From the NCBI GenBank assembly GCA_945787575.1, contig CALZKB010000003.1, forward strand, positions 37,930 through 101,929: 64,000 bases of DNA, read 5' to 3'. The notes below the pieces were generated by a model. It did not search any database. It was not told the origin of the DNA and was given only the letters and a program-made list of their open reading frames with translations. How positions within the stretch are numbered: position 1 is the stretch's first letter; every line of letters begins with the position of its first letter. This document shows positions 30,238 to 39,565 of the stretch, piece after piece. Source of the stretch: Thermoanaerobaculia bacterium. Its GTDB lineage: Bacteria; Acidobacteriota; Thermoanaerobaculia; Multivoradales; JAHEKO01. The position numbers and the translations under genes were made by a program.

Positions 30238-30266
30238 TTGACACCTGTGCGCTATAGTGCTATGGT
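30238..30266 (+). promoter_or_regulatory. sigma70-type promoter with palindrome in the spacer, upstream of the GntR-SpoIIE gene
   Basis: TTGACA-17 nt-TATGGT; spacer contains GCGCTATAGTGC (30249-30260), a near-palindrome. Confidence 0.65.
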
Positions 30267-30301
30267 CTTCTATATCACCAGGGTCCGGGAAGTCATCTTC
30301 C

Positions 30302-31348
30302 ATGAACGTCCACCTCAACCCGAGCTCCACGAAGCCCATCTACCGGCAGATCGAGGGCCAGATCGAGCAGGACATCGAGGCTCGGCGCCTGCGAACAGGG
30401 GACTTGTTGACGCCGATCAGCCGACTCTCCGAGGCGTTGGCGACTTCGCCGGCGGCCGTGCGCAAGGCTTACGAAGCTCTGACTGCCCGAGGTCTGTGCC
30501 GTCGCGAGGGGAAGGCGAGCTACCGCGTCGCCCACGAGGACGGTAAGGCAGAAGCCTGGGAGCGGCCCTCCGAGGATCTGCTCGCTCACCACGTGCTCCT
30601 CCGCGAGCTGCAGCTCGCCCGCGCGGTTCAGACCCGGCTGCTGCCGCCCGCGCTCATCCGGAGCTCGACCTCGACGATCGTCTCCCGGAGCCTGCCGGCA
30701 GCCGTCGTTTCGGGCGATTTTCACGAGGTGGTTCTCGAGCCCGACGGCCGCCTGGCGCTGGCGGTCGGCGACGTCGCTGGCAAGGGGCTCGCCGCCAGCC
30801 TGATCATGGCGTCGGTCAAGGCCGCGCTGCCCTTCGTGGCCGCCGGGAGGACTGCCGCGGAGACGGTGGGCGAGCTGAATCGAAGGCTGTGCGGAGAGCT
30901 CGCGCGGCGCGAGTTCGTCGCTCTGGTCCTGGCCCGCTACGAGCCCGAAGCGGGCACCATCGAGCTGTGCAACGCTGGGCTGCCCGATCCGCTGCTGCTG
31001 ACCCGCGACGGCGGAGTGCACCCCGCGGAGGTTCGCGCCCCTCGGCTACCGCTGGGTGTCCGCGAAGGACTCGCTTATCGCAGTCTCACGCTCTCCGTGG
31101 CGCCCGGAGATCGGCTGCTGTTCTACTCCGACGGCATACCGGAGGCGCGAACGGCCGGCGGCGAGCCTCTCGGTTACGAGACGTTCGAGGCTCTGGTCAG
31201 AGATCACGCCCGCCGCGACGGCGAACCGAGCGACGCGTGGCTCGATCGCCTCCTCGAGCTCGTTCGGCAAGCGACGGTGGAGGAACGGCAAGACGATCAG
31301 ACGGCGGTGCTGCTGGAATGCGGCTCGCCGGGGCCAAGCCGAGGCTGA
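30302..31348 (+). CDS. GntR-type winged-helix fused to SpoIIE/PP2C phosphatase domain
   Basis: N: KPIYRQIEGQIEQDIEARRLRTGDLLTPISRLSEALATSPAAVRKAYEALTARGL; C: VSGDFHEVV, LAVGDVAGKGLAASLIMA, LLFYSDGIPEA, RQDDQTAVLLE. Confidence 0.88.
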   Translation: MNVHLNPSSTKPIYRQIEGQIEQDIEARRLRTGDLLTPISRLSEALATSPAAVRKAYEALTARGLCRREGKASYRVAHEDGKAEAWERPSEDLLAHHVLLRELQLARAVQTRLLPPALIRSSTSTIVSRSLPAAVVSGDFHEVVLEPDGRLALAVGDVAGKGLAASLIMASVKAALPFVAAGRTAAETVGELNRRLCGELARREFVALVLARYEPEAGTIELCNAGLPDPLLLTRDGGVHPAEVRAPRLPLGVREGLAYRSLTLSVAPGDRLLFYSDGIPEARTAGGEPLGYETFEALVRDHARRDGEPSDAWLDRLLELVRQATVEERQDDQTAVLLECGSPGPSRG

Positions 31349-31352
31349 GCGC

Positions 31353-31805
31353 ATGCAGATCCACATCACTTCGGCCAGCGACCTGCCGATCTACCGTCAG
31401 ATCATGCGTCAGATCGTCGACGCCGTTGCTGGCGACCGTCTGCGGCCCGGCGACAAGCTCACCTCGCAACGTGAGCTCGCCGAGCAGCTCGTCGTTTCGC
31501 CGCTCACGGTCAAGAAGGCCTACGACGAGCTGGAGCGTGAGGGGCTCATCCAAACCCAAAGGGGTCGCGGTACGTTCGTGGCCGCGCGGGCCACGGCGGT
31601 CGATCCCGCCGCTCAGCGGCAACGGCTGCGCGAGATGGTGCGCCGGCTGCTGTCGCGCGCGCACCTCGGCGGTCTCGATTTCACTTCGGTGTTGGCGCTG
31701 GCCCACGAAGTCCACGCCGAGCTCGAGGCCGAGCGTGCCGCCGAAGGGGGCTCTGACAACGACGAGAGCGGCTCCACGCCGCGGGAAAGCGAGAGCGAAT
31801 CATGA
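31353..31805 (+). CDS. GntR family transcriptional regulator, YtrA-like
   Basis: LPIYRQIMRQIVDAVAGDRLRPGDKLTSQRELAEQLVVSPLTVKKAYDELEREGLIQTQRGRGTFVA; short C-terminus. Confidence 0.9.
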   Translation: MQIHITSASDLPIYRQIMRQIVDAVAGDRLRPGDKLTSQRELAEQLVVSPLTVKKAYDELEREGLIQTQRGRGTFVAARATAVDPAAQRQRLREMVRRLLSRAHLGGLDFTSVLALAHEVHAELEAERAAEGGSDNDESGSTPRESESES

Positions 31806-32707
31806 GCGTCGTCGACTTCCATCGGATCCACCACGCCTACGAGCGCGGCAACCAGGTGCTTCGCGACGTCAGCTTCACGGTCGAGCGCAGGCAGGTCCTC
31901 GGGCTACTCGGGAAGAACGGCGCCGGCAAGACCACCCTGCTGCGTCTCGCCATGGGCCTGCTGAAGGCGCAGGAGGGCGAGGTGCGACTCCTGGGTCTCG
32001 ACCCTCGCGAGCGTCCGCTCGAGGTCAAACTCCGGGTCGGCTACGTCTCCGAGGACCAGATCTTGCCGCCGGCCTTGCGGGTGCGCCAGGTGCTCGACTT
32101 CCATCGGGGGGTCTTCCCGACCTGGGACGAGGAGGTGGCTCGCCGCCTCGGCGAGCGCTTCGAGATCCCTAGCGAGGCGAAGATCAAGACTCTGAGCAGG
32201 GGGCAGGTGCGGCAGGTGGCGCTGCTGTGCGCCATCGCCCATCGGCCCGAGCTGCTCATCCTCGACGAGCCGGCCGGAGGCCTCGACCCGGCCGCCAGGC
32301 GGGAGTTTCTGGAGACCTCCATCCAGCTCCTCAACGAGGCGGGCTCGACGATCCTCTTCTCCTCCCATTACATGTCCGACGTCGAGCGCCTGGCCGACCG
32401 CATCGTCATGCTCCACGATGGCGGCGTGCTGGTCGACAGCGAGCTCGACGAGCTGCGAGAGAGCTACTCGTTGGCGATGGTGCCCGCCGGCCCGGAAACC
32501 TCGCCGGAGCGACTGCGGGCGCTCGCCGGCTGCACCAGCGTCCGCCGCCGAGGGGACTCACTGCATCTCGTCTTCGAGCTCGAGCCTCAGGCCGCCGAGT
32601 CCCTGCTCGAGCGCGAGCTCGGAATCGCGAACAGCCGCTGCTCCGCATTGGCGCTCGAGGAGATGTTCATCGAACTCGTCGGGGGTCAGGCTCCGGAGTC
32701 ATCCTAG
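31802..32707 (+). CDS. ABC transporter ATP-binding protein
   Basis: LGLLGKNGAGKTTLLRLAMGLL, LSRGQVRQVALLCAIAHRPELLILDEPAGGLDP; ATGA overlap with the GntR gene. Confidence 0.95.
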   Translation: MSVVDFHRIHHAYERGNQVLRDVSFTVERRQVLGLLGKNGAGKTTLLRLAMGLLKAQEGEVRLLGLDPRERPLEVKLRVGYVSEDQILPPALRVRQVLDFHRGVFPTWDEEVARRLGERFEIPSEAKIKTLSRGQVRQVALLCAIAHRPELLILDEPAGGLDPAARREFLETSIQLLNEAGSTILFSSHYMSDVERLADRIVMLHDGGVLVDSELDELRESYSLAMVPAGPETSPERLRALAGCTSVRRRGDSLHLVFELEPQAAESLLERELGIANSRCSALALEEMFIELVGGQAPESS

Positions 32708-32716
32708 GACACGCCC

Positions 32717-34576
32717 ATGATGAACGCCGCACGAGCCGATTCCATTCTTTACCGAGCCGTGAGTCGCTCGTGGTCGAGCTGGCTCCCGCTGCTGCTACTG
32801 GCCACCGGACTCAACACCAGCCTGCTCTTCGGATGGATCACCGCCGCCGCGGCCCGCGGACAGAGCTCGGCGGTACCACCCGCGCACCTCGGGCTGCTCT
32901 TCTGGAGCGGCTTGGCGCTCTACCTGATTCTCGGCTACGAGAGGAGGCGCTGTGACCGGCTCGAGCTGACCCTGCCGTTGCCGGCGCACCGCCTCTGGCT
33001 CGGCCATCTGGCCGCGGTCTACAGCGCCGGACTGGCGTTCCTCGGCGTGGGCCTTGGAGGAGGCTGGCTGATGGCGCGCGTCGCGGTCCGTCTCCAACCT
33101 TCGCTCGAAGCGTCGTTGACGCTGCGACGTTTGGTTCCTCTCCTGCTGGCGAGCTTGTTGCTCGCGGTCGCCCTCTTCGAGCGCGACGACCCGCCCCAAC
33201 ATCGGATCCGCGGTGGCTTCGCCGGTCTCCTCCGGCGGTTGCTCGTCGTCGTCGCCATCGGAGCGGTCGTCTGGGTGCTGAGCGGTCGGCCGATCGCCTG
33301 GTCTCTTCTCTTGGCAGGGCTGGCGGCGGTCTCGTTGGTCAACACCTACCGCTCGCTTCCCGGCTCCTTTCTCTTGCTGCCGGAGCGGCCGGTAAGGAGA
33401 CCGGTGAGAGGTCGGACCGGCGCGCTTGCCGCGCCTTCCGCCGCCGGCTCCGCACCGCGGTCGGCACCCGGCAAGCTCCGCTGGCGACTGCTGGTGCGGA
33501 TCCTCTACGACTTTCCGCCGTGGGGCCCGGTGACCGCCTGGGTCGAGTTGCTCGCGGCGATCTTCATCGGCGCACTCTTCGGCGGGCTGTTCGAGCTCTT
33601 TCTGGTTCCCGAGACCGAGGGCATGCGATTCACGCAGCTGCCTCTCGTCGTCTACATGCTGGTGGTGCTCTTCGCGCCTCTTACCACCCAAATGAGCTCT
33701 CTCGATCCGCTGCCGATCTCTCGCCGAGTCCTGTTCGCCTCCGTCATTGTGCCGAGCTTGCTGGCGATGGTCGCGGGTTACGCGACGGTGCGACTCATCG
33801 TCGCCACCCGTCCGGCCACACCGCTCGTCGAATACCGCATCGAAGAGCCCCACGCCTGGGTCGGCGTCCAAGAGGCCTTGATGAGCGCCACCCGAACCGG
33901 CCCCCCGATTCTCGAATCACCGTGGGGCGAGACCCACACGGCATGGCACCGCCCGCTGTTCAAGGGTGGTGAGCTTGTCCTCTACTCACCCTATAGCACC
34001 ACCGAAGAGACCTCCGCGCGCTTCGAGGCCCTGATGCTCAGTCGCGCGATCGCGGCGGGCTACGGTCTCCAGATGCCGTGGGAAGAAGCCCTGGAGCGCT
34101 ATTTCGAAGTCGACGGTGACAAGATCGTCGGCCTCAAGCACGAAGGGGTGACAGGGCACGAGTTGTTCGCCGGTGTCGAGCCCAGGTCGCGAGGGCCGAT
34201 CTCGGTTATCGCGCTGACCATGGCGATCGTCCCCTTCTTCCTTCTCCTCGCCCTGTTCTTGAGGACCTTCCGCGCTACCGTGTCAGACCGCCGGCGCCGG
34301 GCGTTCTACTGGAGCTTCCTCGCCGCCCTCTTAATCGTGATGATCGGAGGCTTCACGTTCCAGGTCGCCGGGTGGTTCAACCAGCGCGTCGGCTGGGCAA
34401 TCCTCGAGAGCCTCGCTTTTCGCTGGGGCCAGAGTCCGACGGCGATGGTTCTTACCTGGCTTCTGTGCTGCCTGGGCATGGTCGCCGCCTACTGGCTGGC
34501 TCAGCGCGCCTTCCAGAGAATCGAGCTGCCCGCCACACCCACGAAGTTCACCTTGGTCGACTTCGCCAAGGAGTAG
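32717..34576 (+). CDS. ABC-2-like membrane permease
   Basis: 619 aa with multiple TM segments, immediately downstream of the ATPase. Confidence 0.8.
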   Translation: MMNAARADSILYRAVSRSWSSWLPLLLLATGLNTSLLFGWITAAAARGQSSAVPPAHLGLLFWSGLALYLILGYERRRCDRLELTLPLPAHRLWLGHLAAVYSAGLAFLGVGLGGGWLMARVAVRLQPSLEASLTLRRLVPLLLASLLLAVALFERDDPPQHRIRGGFAGLLRRLLVVVAIGAVVWVLSGRPIAWSLLLAGLAAVSLVNTYRSLPGSFLLLPERPVRRPVRGRTGALAAPSAAGSAPRSAPGKLRWRLLVRILYDFPPWGPVTAWVELLAAIFIGALFGGLFELFLVPETEGMRFTQLPLVVYMLVVLFAPLTTQMSSLDPLPISRRVLFASVIVPSLLAMVAGYATVRLIVATRPATPLVEYRIEEPHAWVGVQEALMSATRTGPPILESPWGETHTAWHRPLFKGGELVLYSPYSTTEETSARFEALMLSRAIAAGYGLQMPWEEALERYFEVDGDKIVGLKHEGVTGHELFAGVEPRSRGPISVIALTMAIVPFFLLLALFLRTFRATVSDRRRRAFYWSFLAALLIVMIGGFTFQVAGWFNQRVGWAILESLAFRWGQSPTAMVLTWLLCCLGMVAAYWLAQRAFQRIELPATPTKFTLVDFAKE

Positions 34577-34757: not shown

Positions 34758-35093
34758 ATGTCACGAAGCTCGATCTACCTCTTGCTGGCGATGGCCGGGG
34801 CCGTGCTGCCCTGGTTCTTCTTCGCCGAGTTCTTCGCCGCCGAGGGAGCGAGCGGCAACTTCGTCGGCGCCTTGTTCGCCAACGGCGCGGCCGGGGGCTT
34901 CACCGCCGACTTGCTGATTTCGTCGCTGGTGTTCTGGATCTTTCTGTTTCCCACCGCTCGCCGGGCCGGAGTCGGTCACCCGTGGGTGTTCGTGGTGATC
35001 AATCTCTTGATCGGCTTGTCGTGCGCGCTGCCGTTGTTTCTCTGGCGGCTCGAGCGCGGCTCGCGTGCGACGCCGGAAACCGCAACGCCGTGA
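34758..35093 (+). CDS. DUF2834-like small membrane protein
   Basis: MSRSSIYLLLAMAGAVLPWFFFAEFFAAEG...ADLLISSLVFWIFLFPTARR...FLWRLE. Confidence 0.8.
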   Translation: MSRSSIYLLLAMAGAVLPWFFFAEFFAAEGASGNFVGALFANGAAGGFTADLLISSLVFWIFLFPTARRAGVGHPWVFVVINLLIGLSCALPLFLWRLERGSRATPETATP

Positions 35094-35410
35094 CCACGCC
35101 GGCGTCGACGCCCACCGCCGGCGGCTTCGGCACGGCCCTTCGGGGTTGGCGGCGCCACCGCAGGCTGTCACAGCTCGCTCTCTCCTTGGAGGCGGGGGTC
35201 TCTCCGCGGCATGTCTCCTTCCTCGAGACGGGGCGGTCGCGTCCGAGCCGGGCGGTCGAGGTCCGGCAAGGGGATGCAACCCTGCGCTGGCTGACCACTC
35301 TCATTACCTTCGGTGGAGCGCTCGATGTCGCGGTCGACGAGCTGGTGGTCGAGTGCTTCTTCCCAGCCGACGTGGAGACCGAGCGATTGATCGCGGCTTC
35401 AGCTCGCTGA
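35090..35410 (+). pseudogene. XRE/MmyB-like HTH regulator with internal deletion
   Basis: FGTALRGWRRHRRLSQLALSLEAGVSPRHVSFLETGRSRPSRA joined directly to GDATLRWLTTLITFGGALDVAVDELVVECFFPADVETERLI. Confidence 0.7.
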
Positions 35411-35584
35411 AGTCCGGTCGAGCCACGACGCATTCCCGAATCTTCGCCCGAGCGGGCGGGGTGAGACTCTCCGTGCAGCTGCTCGGCGCGAAGCAGCTGC
35501 ACTTCAGCGCGGGTCGCACCGGCCCCGGTTGGGGTAGAGTTGAGATCCGGCGCGGGCCGGGCTCTCGAGGAGGTGAGGAAAGCC

Positions 35585-35977
35585 GTGGGCTACACCTACC
35601 TGCCCCACACCGCGGATCTGCGGGCGCTTCTCGACGCCGCCGACGGCGACGGTCTGTACCAGACGGCGGTCGACCTGGTGCGCGAGACGGTAGTCGGCGA
35701 ATCGCCGGTCGCCGCTCGTGAGGAGCGCCGCTGGACGCCGATCGGCGACGACGCCGAGGAGCGCTTCTTCCGCTTCGTCCGCGAGCTCGTCTTTCTCTAC
35801 GACGTAGACGGCTTCCTACCGGCTTGGGTGCGCCGCGGAGAGTCGACCGTGATCGCCGGTGAGTGCTTTGCCGCCATGAGGCACACCAGCGAGCGCCAGA
35901 TCAAGGCGGTCACTCGCCACGGCTACCGCTTCTCCACCGACGGCCGGTGGCGGGCCGAGTTGATCTTCGATCTCTAG
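35585..35977 (+). CDS. archease
   Basis: VGYTYLPHTADLRALLDAADGDGLYQTAVDLV...ELVFLYDVDGFLP...IKAVTRHGYRF...ELIFDL. Confidence 0.85.
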   Translation: MGYTYLPHTADLRALLDAADGDGLYQTAVDLVRETVVGESPVAAREERRWTPIGDDAEERFFRFVRELVFLYDVDGFLPAWVRRGESTVIAGECFAAMRHTSERQIKAVTRHGYRFSTDGRWRAELIFDL

Positions 35978-38710: not shown

Positions 38711-39565
38711 CTAGGCTACGACGACCCGATCGCCGCCGGCGTGCTTGGCTCTGTAGAGGGCGCGATCGGCGGCGCGAAAGGCCAGATCGAGGTCGTAGGC
38801 CTCGTCGGACCAGAAGAGGCCTAAGCTCGCGCTCGGACGGACGTCGTCGGTGGAGGCGGGGATCCTCAGGCGCCGAATGGCCTCCGCTTTGCGCTCTGCC
38901 AACGCCGCGGCGTCGGCCAGGCTGAGGGAAGACAGGAAGAGCACGAACTCGTCCCCTCCCCAGCGCCCGGCCGCATCGCTCTTGCGCAGGTTCCGTTGCA
39001 AGGCGGCGGCTCACTGACGCAGGACCTCGTCGCCGACGTCGTGGCCGTGGGTGTCGTTGATGGTCTTGAGTCCGTCCAGGTCGATCAAGAGAAAGGCGTA
39101 CGGCATCTCGAGACGCTCGAGCAGAGTCAGCTCACGCTCGACGATGCGCACAAAGAACCCGCGTCCCAGAGTGTGGGTCAGGTCGTCCTCGGAGATCAGG
39201 TCGTCAAGATCGATGTGGCACTCGAGGATACCGCCGTCGCTCAGCGGCACGGCGACGACTTTGTGCAGGCTTGCCGAGCGCGCACCGGTGACGTGGGCGT
39301 GGCAGACCGTGACCGGCTCCTGCCGTTTCGTCGCCTCGATCTTCGGGCAGAACTCGCCATGCTCGTCGCAGGGCTGCGCATAACCGTGAGTGATCTGGTG
39401 GCAGGTCCCGGCGGCGCTACCGTAGAGGCGCTCGGCCTCGGTGTTGCGATAGCGCAGCCCGTAGTCGGCATCGATCCACAGGACCGGGAAGGGAAGGGCA
39501 TCGAGGAGGGGTCTCGCCGCCGGCAATCCCTCGACATCGAGCGGGAAGTGCGGTTGCCTCGCCAC
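38711..39565 (-). pseudogene. PAS-like plus GGDEF diguanylate cyclase interrupted by in-frame TGA (39011-39013)
   Basis: ...LLIDLDGLKTINDTHGHDVGDEVLRQ[TGA]AAALQRNLRKSDAAGRWGGDEFVLFL...; both halves in the same frame. Confidence 0.8.

Follow-up and report, generated by a model that had tools for sequence, protein, structure and literature searches.

A GntR winged helix fused to a SpoIIE-type phosphatase in YtrA-type repressor-ABC transporter operons of Thermoanaerobaculia

The locus described here raises the question of what the winged helix of a GntR-type repressor may be doing at the N-terminus of a protein phosphatase. The locus lies in a stretch of 64,000 nucleotides from a Thermoanaerobaculia bacterium (GenBank assembly GCA_945787575.1, contig CALZKB010000003.1, positions 37,930 to 101,929 of the forward strand), referred to below as the window and numbered from its first letter. 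An earlier examination of the letters and open reading frames of this DNA (hereafter, the sequence-only reading) had pointed to a single frame, 30302-31348, in which a GntR helix-turn-helix is joined to a PP2C/SpoIIE domain, and Pfam searches bear this out: PF00392 matches residues 14-76 (E 3.5e-9, 36.6 bits versus a curated cut-off of 27) and PF07228 matches the phosphatase part (E 1e-41, 143 bits versus a curated cut-off of 25). The gene, located on the plus strand, encodes 348 aa arranged as winged helix, linker helix and phosphatase, an architecture supported by Pfam, 12 further complete orthologs and an AlphaFold2 model, and is followed by genes for a stand-alone YtrA-like GntR repressor and an ATP-binding cassette (ABC) transporter. 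As a tentative answer, which we favour but hold with reserve, we propose that the fusion is a SpoIIE/RsbU-type Ser/Thr phosphatase gated by a diverged copy of its operon's YtrA-type repressor that serves as its input module.

The recurrence of the fusion in related genomes was proposed in the sequence-only reading as a check against an assembly join. A protein search of relatives gave ten further full-length fusions; in a profile search across 149 genomes from the class Thermoanaerobaculia the total rose to 13 complete fusions which, together with three partial ones, are distributed over 16 of these genomes and six families. An assembly join is ruled out by the 13 complete fusions in six families. 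Two of the partial copies (G486 and G481) are cut by contig ends, and the third (G490) carries an internal deletion. The other complete fusions are 40-45% identical to that of the window over the whole length, and all 11 members of the fusion alignment A1 match PF07228 as well as PF00392, the latter at E 0.01 or better. The fusion is missing from both other sampled genomes of the window's genus, so that its distribution in the class is patchy. Outside the class, no fusion was found at E 1e-50 in a sample of 396 genomes from the phylum, and none turned up in the 64 genomes searched, without a positive control, from the phylum to which G500 (a Gemmatimonadetes metagenome-assembled genome) belongs. 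A peptide-pattern scan of a species-genome collection returned only phosphatases with other N-termini; the thresholds of these wider searches were strict, and distant analogues could escape them.

The phosphatase domain, the Pfam-matched part of which comprises residues 147-339 (30740-31318, plus strand), retains the metal-binding and acidic motifs GDF, GDVxGKG, DG and DDxT. All of the acidic motifs named in the sequence-only reading are present, and the residues G138, D139, F140, D157, D277, D331 and D332, including the catalytic aspartates, are invariant across the 13 fusions; an inactive phosphatase is thereby ruled out on sequence. In the AlphaFold2 model of the window protein (mean predicted local distance difference test score, pLDDT, 86.8) the phosphatase is confidently predicted, and its nearest solved folds are Rv1364c and RssB. 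The linker helix seen in this model, residues 91-112 (30572-30637, plus strand), enters the phosphatase domain at RLLPP, and in the G102 ortholog, which has the common form of the fusion, one unbroken 36-residue helix (residues 88-123) runs into the phosphatase. In a tree of phosphatase domains, those of the fusions nest inside a clade (100/99 support) that comprises membrane-anchored SpoIIE phosphatases from the same class, about 46-53% identical to the fusion phosphatase across the shared domain. Because of this nesting, the fusion is best seen as a phosphatase of the membrane-anchored SpoIIE type, the input module of which has been exchanged, with a winged helix in place of the membrane input.

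Whether the winged helix (residues 1-76; 30302-30529, plus strand) still reads DNA can be judged by alignment with stand-alone repressors, including those encoded in the same operons. NagR contacts bases through Arg38, Arg48 and the wing glycine Gly69 (PMC4333415); in the window's repressor the corresponding positions, by ungapped alignment with the 2wv0 offset, are R40, P50 and G71. None of the 13 complete fusions retains the wing glycine, which K replaces in the window, whereas the neighbouring repressors do; the alpha2 arginine corresponding to R40 is replaced or deleted in six of the 13, the window (S40) among them, and kept in seven. The net charge of the wing is -1 to -3 in 10 of the 11 fusions measured, compared with +1 to +3 in the repressors, the window fusion having +4; with G477 and G491, which were judged from sequence, 12 of the 13 fusions have no basic wing. 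The repressors of the common-type operons share PSIR, RVSVITVQRAY and the wing RRGKGF(F/W)V or close variants, and the fused copies have lost these signatures while keeping the residues of the fold. The fused domains thus lack the GntR-family DNA-contact signature of alpha2 arginine, wing glycine and basic wing. They align with the repressors over 98 columns, reaching the start of the C-terminal dimerisation helix, and the input domain of the common form accordingly consists of the winged helix plus the start of that helix; similarity stops in its first part, and at 348 aa the fusion exceeds the size of YtrA-subfamily members (about 120-150 aa). As most of the DNA-reading residues have been lost, the fused copy is probably a switch for the phosphatase rather than a DNA-bound regulator.

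The loss of DNA-contact residues would also be expected if the fused winged helix were a functionless by-product of a tandem repressor duplication, with only the phosphatase being of consequence, and an in-frame deletion in G490 that takes out the recognition helix and the wing but leaves the phosphatase motifs intact fits this explanation. However, the ratio of nonsynonymous to synonymous substitution rates (dN/dS) of the winged helix between close pairs is 0.19-0.26, like that of the phosphatase domain; the domain is complete in 13 fusions across six families; and the whole G490 operon is decaying, so that we give its deletion less weight as a sign that DNA reading is dispensable. By the measure of substitution rates, the fused winged helix is under purifying selection, a value of about 0.2 ruling out an unconstrained domain, and we regard the remnant explanation as highly improbable. 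In the G490 locus itself (L123 6383-7255, minus strand), the deletion fuses helix 2 of the winged helix to the entry of the phosphatase, and the operator is kept along with the phosphatase motifs.

The genes downstream of the fusion were described in the sequence-only reading as a stand-alone YtrA-like GntR and an ABC exporter, nearly contiguous, and this description proved accurate. The repressor (31353-31805, plus strand, 150 aa; PF00392, E 1.6e-16) has the intact wing RGRGTFV, and is followed on the same strand by an ABC transporter ATPase (31802-32707; PF00005, E 2.7e-26) and a membrane permease of 619 aa (32717-34576), which matches no family in Pfam and has homologues in G014, G017, G105 and G481. 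As the gaps are 4 bp between the fusion stop and the repressor, a 4-bp overlap between the repressor and the ATPase and 9 bp between the ATPase and the permease, the four genes are likely to form a single transcript, as predicted from their spacing. A short GntR, an ABC ATPase and a permease, co-directional and near-contiguous or overlapping, make up the YtrA-type operon layout. The scores of the repressor against the NCBIfam PmtR model (78 bits, cut-off 200) and of the ATPase against the PmtA model (168 bits, cut-off 350) lie below the cut-offs. Synteny is conserved: a YtrA-like GntR directly follows the fusion in 16 of 16 genomes and an intact ABC ATPase is present in 14 of 16, and loci of the common form continue, where the contig allows, with one or two short permeases (about 220 aa). 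The window's repressor-ABC-permease set, which we term type B, differs from that of the common form. The set nearest to it is a fusion-free operon of G014 (GntR 76% and ABC ATPase 68% identical), and more distant fusion-free relatives occur in G105 and G481; the permease homologues of G014, G105 and G481 adjoin GntR and ABC genes without a fusion. The operons of G490 and G491 are, judged by their gene content, decaying, since the ABC gene is cut short in the former and gone in the latter; in G491 (L121 4600-6342, minus strand) the fusion and the repressor are intact, the ABC ATPase gene is missing and only a permease fragment follows the repressor.

Upstream of the fusion, the region 30238-30266, to which the sequence-only reading had drawn attention, is a sigma-70-like promoter of the operon (TTGACA-17-TATGGT, plus strand, 10/12 consensus positions); two sites of this quality occur in 4.8 kb versus 0.2 expected. 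Its -10 element is overlapped by a predicted palindromic YtrA-type operator, GTGCTATGGTCTTCTATATCAC (30257-30278, plus strand), which has 2 mismatches to the palindrome used as an independent yardstick, the perfect GTGCTATA-N6-TATAGCAC upstream of the fusion-free GntR-ABC-permease operon of G014. In a search with this palindrome, the window had no match other than 30257-30278 (0.03 expected), and no site in the 5.6 Mb genome matched better; the genome has one other site, with 3 mismatches. In the common-type loci, a palindrome fitting YYGTAYATR-N5-YATRNACAG with no more than 1 mismatch is found in 13 of the 13 that have upstream DNA, 15-101 bp 5' of the fusion start codon; G486 and G481, in which the fusion starts beyond the contig end, are omitted from these counts. 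No further site occurs in the 163 kb that these loci span, and the matches in some 0.6 Mb of additional DNA are all copies of the same sites; as the pattern was derived from the same loci, the evidence lies in this uniqueness and not in the presence of the site. In seven loci (L073, L074, L075, L076, L077, L079 and L120) the palindrome overlies the fusion start codon and contains a promoter-like -10, from which leaderless mRNA translation of these fusions may follow. Because a site of the G014 type is found at the window's promoter, the repressor gene appears to be separated by the fusion gene from a predicted operator of its own type.

A predicted operator and a promoter immediately 5' of the fusion speak for the idea advanced in the sequence-only reading, namely that a DNA-bound phosphatase could couple a phospho-signal directly to transporter expression: a dimer of the fusion would sit on the operator of its own operon, and either DNA binding would activate the phosphatase or phospho-signals would tune repression directly. 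The alpha2 arginine retained in seven fusions agrees with this idea, as do, in the window, the basic wing of the fused copy and the fact that its winged helix is closest to that of its own neighbour repressor, and the window's own fusion may, on these residues, bind DNA. As a statement on the family, however, the idea does not hold up, given the wing glycine lost from every complete fusion, the wings that are not basic in all but one of them, the alpha2 arginine lost in the window and five others, and the replacement of the YtrA dimerisation domain by the phosphatase linker. We therefore keep it as possible for the window's protein, do not consider it the best reading of the family, and judge it distinctly unlikely overall.

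The input-module reading that we favour draws on published work on both halves. In RsbU, the linkers come together in a coiled coil, by which the phosphatase domains are dimerised and activated; the same linker logic has been argued to extend to PPM phosphatases that carry diverse domains at the N-terminus, RssB being a structural parallel (PMC12143880). YtrA-type regulators act as repressors of operons that hold their own gene and genes for membrane proteins or ABC exporters, from sites over the transcription start (PMC6746942, PMC5080381). This work and the anatomy of the locus lead us to propose that control of the operon lies with the intact repressor, the fused copy being a dimeric phosphatase input. 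The intact stand-alone repressor would keep the operon down; the winged-helix pair would be acted on by a signal related to the transporter or to the envelope, or by the repressor in the role of partner; the dimer and the linker helices would change order, as in RsbU and RssB, and switch the phosphatase; and the latter would dephosphorylate a target phosphorylated on Ser/Thr, for which a STAS anti-sigma antagonist encoded elsewhere is the most plausible candidate. The effect of a single stimulus would thus be twofold: higher transporter expression, by way of the repressor, and an input from the phosphatase to a partner-switching or kinase pathway. A search of the window's own genome (G000) for such partners, as suggested in the sequence-only reading, gave 8 STAS hits, several RsbW-like proteins and 47 Pkinase (Ser/Thr kinase) hits, so that substrates for a partner-switching or kinase-counteracting role exist. 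The same genome has 21 SpoIIE-domain hits, many of them behind GAF, receiver or membrane domains. We infer the sensed signal, the pairing with the repressor and the dephosphorylated substrate.

Several observations weigh against this proposal. None of the STAS or kinase genes lies within the operon, which makes the substrate a guess. In the window's fusion, the fused wing is still basic (+4), residues 80-94 are of low confidence in the AlphaFold2 model, and the linker is unlike that of the common form. Finally, genus g39 keeps the fusion though the ABC gene is lost or cut, so the link to transport is not absolute. The retention of fusion and repressor in G491 despite the loss of the ABC gene fits with another explanation, that of an anti-repressor or repressor phosphatase, in which the fused winged helix would pair with the stand-alone repressor, titrate it or bring the phosphatase to it, and remove a phosphate placed by one of the many Ser/Thr kinases, thereby resetting repression. 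In favour of this explanation, the fused domain is paralogous to the neighbouring repressor type, from which it has diverged, and in the window it is most similar to the repressor next to it; the common form keeps the fold together with the beginning of the dimerisation helix; and the 47 Pkinase hits would supply kinases. Phosphorylation of the repressor would, however, have to be assumed, and the other phosphatases of the clade have membrane domains and no GntR nearby; we consider this explanation unlikely.

The relation of the fused domain to its neighbour also raises the question of whether the fusion arose once or twice. The fused winged helix of the window is 41% identical to its own neighbour GntR and at most 33% identical to the other fused domains; in the winged-helix tree it groups with the type-B repressors (99/98 support), and in the phosphatase tree the window's domain branches apart from the other fusions. 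As both halves separate in the best trees, they suggest either a second fusion event in the window or one fusion followed by a winged-helix exchange; an exchange with the neighbouring repressor would give the same tree picture. Approximately unbiased (AU) tests do not reject a single fusion clade (p 0.24 for the phosphatase, p 0.15 for the winged helix), and the branches are long. That a repressor duplicated in its own operon became the sensor half of a phosphatase at least twice, once for the common form and once for the window, is possible, if doubtful. If this were true, a single signal, on being read by two winged helices that are paralogues, would drive transcription as well as Ser/Thr phospho-signalling.

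Two other reading frames further along the window are interrupted by stops. At 34982-35977 (plus strand), two stops separate an XRE-type helix-turn-helix (RRHRRLSQLALSLEAGVSPRHVSFLETGRSRPSR) from a later open stretch in the same frame, and the whole looks like a decayed regulator gene. At 38711-39565 (minus strand), a PAS/GGDEF-like frame, open on either side, has one in-frame stop just 5' of GRWGGDEF, which may reflect decay, readthrough or a base error.

GntR subfamilies are defined by their C-terminal domains and include FadR, HutC, MocR, YtrA, AraR and PlmA. The fusion resembles them in having an N-terminal winged helix followed by another domain, but its winged helix lacks the wing signature and may no longer belong to a transcription factor, and to our knowledge a phosphatase C-terminal domain occurs in none of these subfamilies. 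With the PPM phosphatases RsbU, RssB (Pseudomonas) and SpoIIE it shares the phosphatase domain, the metal-binding aspartates, an N-terminal input domain and, as predicted, a helical linker into the phosphatase; it differs from them in that the input there is a four-helix bundle, receiver, PAS, GAF or membrane domain rather than a GntR winged helix, and in that the fusion gene sits in a repressor-ABC operon that has no genes for STAS proteins or kinases. The membrane-anchored SpoIIE phosphatases of the class (G000:C178 and others), its relatives in the phosphatase tree, have hydrophobic membrane-type N-termini instead of the winged helix, and no relative of the GntR or ABC genes of the window operon was detected in their fetched flanks. 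The operon, in turn, is built like ytr of B. subtilis and pmtR-pmtABCD of S. aureus, with a short GntR, an ABC ATPase and a permease tightly packed, and its operator, predicted from sequence, lies as do the footprints of PmtR and Sulfolobus YtrA, in which the repressor site is over the transcription or translation start (PMC5080381, PMC6746942). Unlike those two operons, it has an extra first gene, the GntR-phosphatase fusion, between the operator and the repressor. The sequence-only reading had matched this architecture to no described system, and a search of open-access papers likewise gave nothing relevant on a GntR-SpoIIE fusion and no repressor-derived winged helix among the input domains of SpoIIE phosphatases. 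As far as these searches reach, the architecture is real, conserved and undescribed, and combines a SpoIIE-type sensor phosphatase with a YtrA-type repressor-ABC operon. It offers natural pairs of an intact repressor and an altered, fused copy in one operon, and with them a direct test case of whether a one-component repressor can become a phosphatase input, linking exporter control to partner switching.

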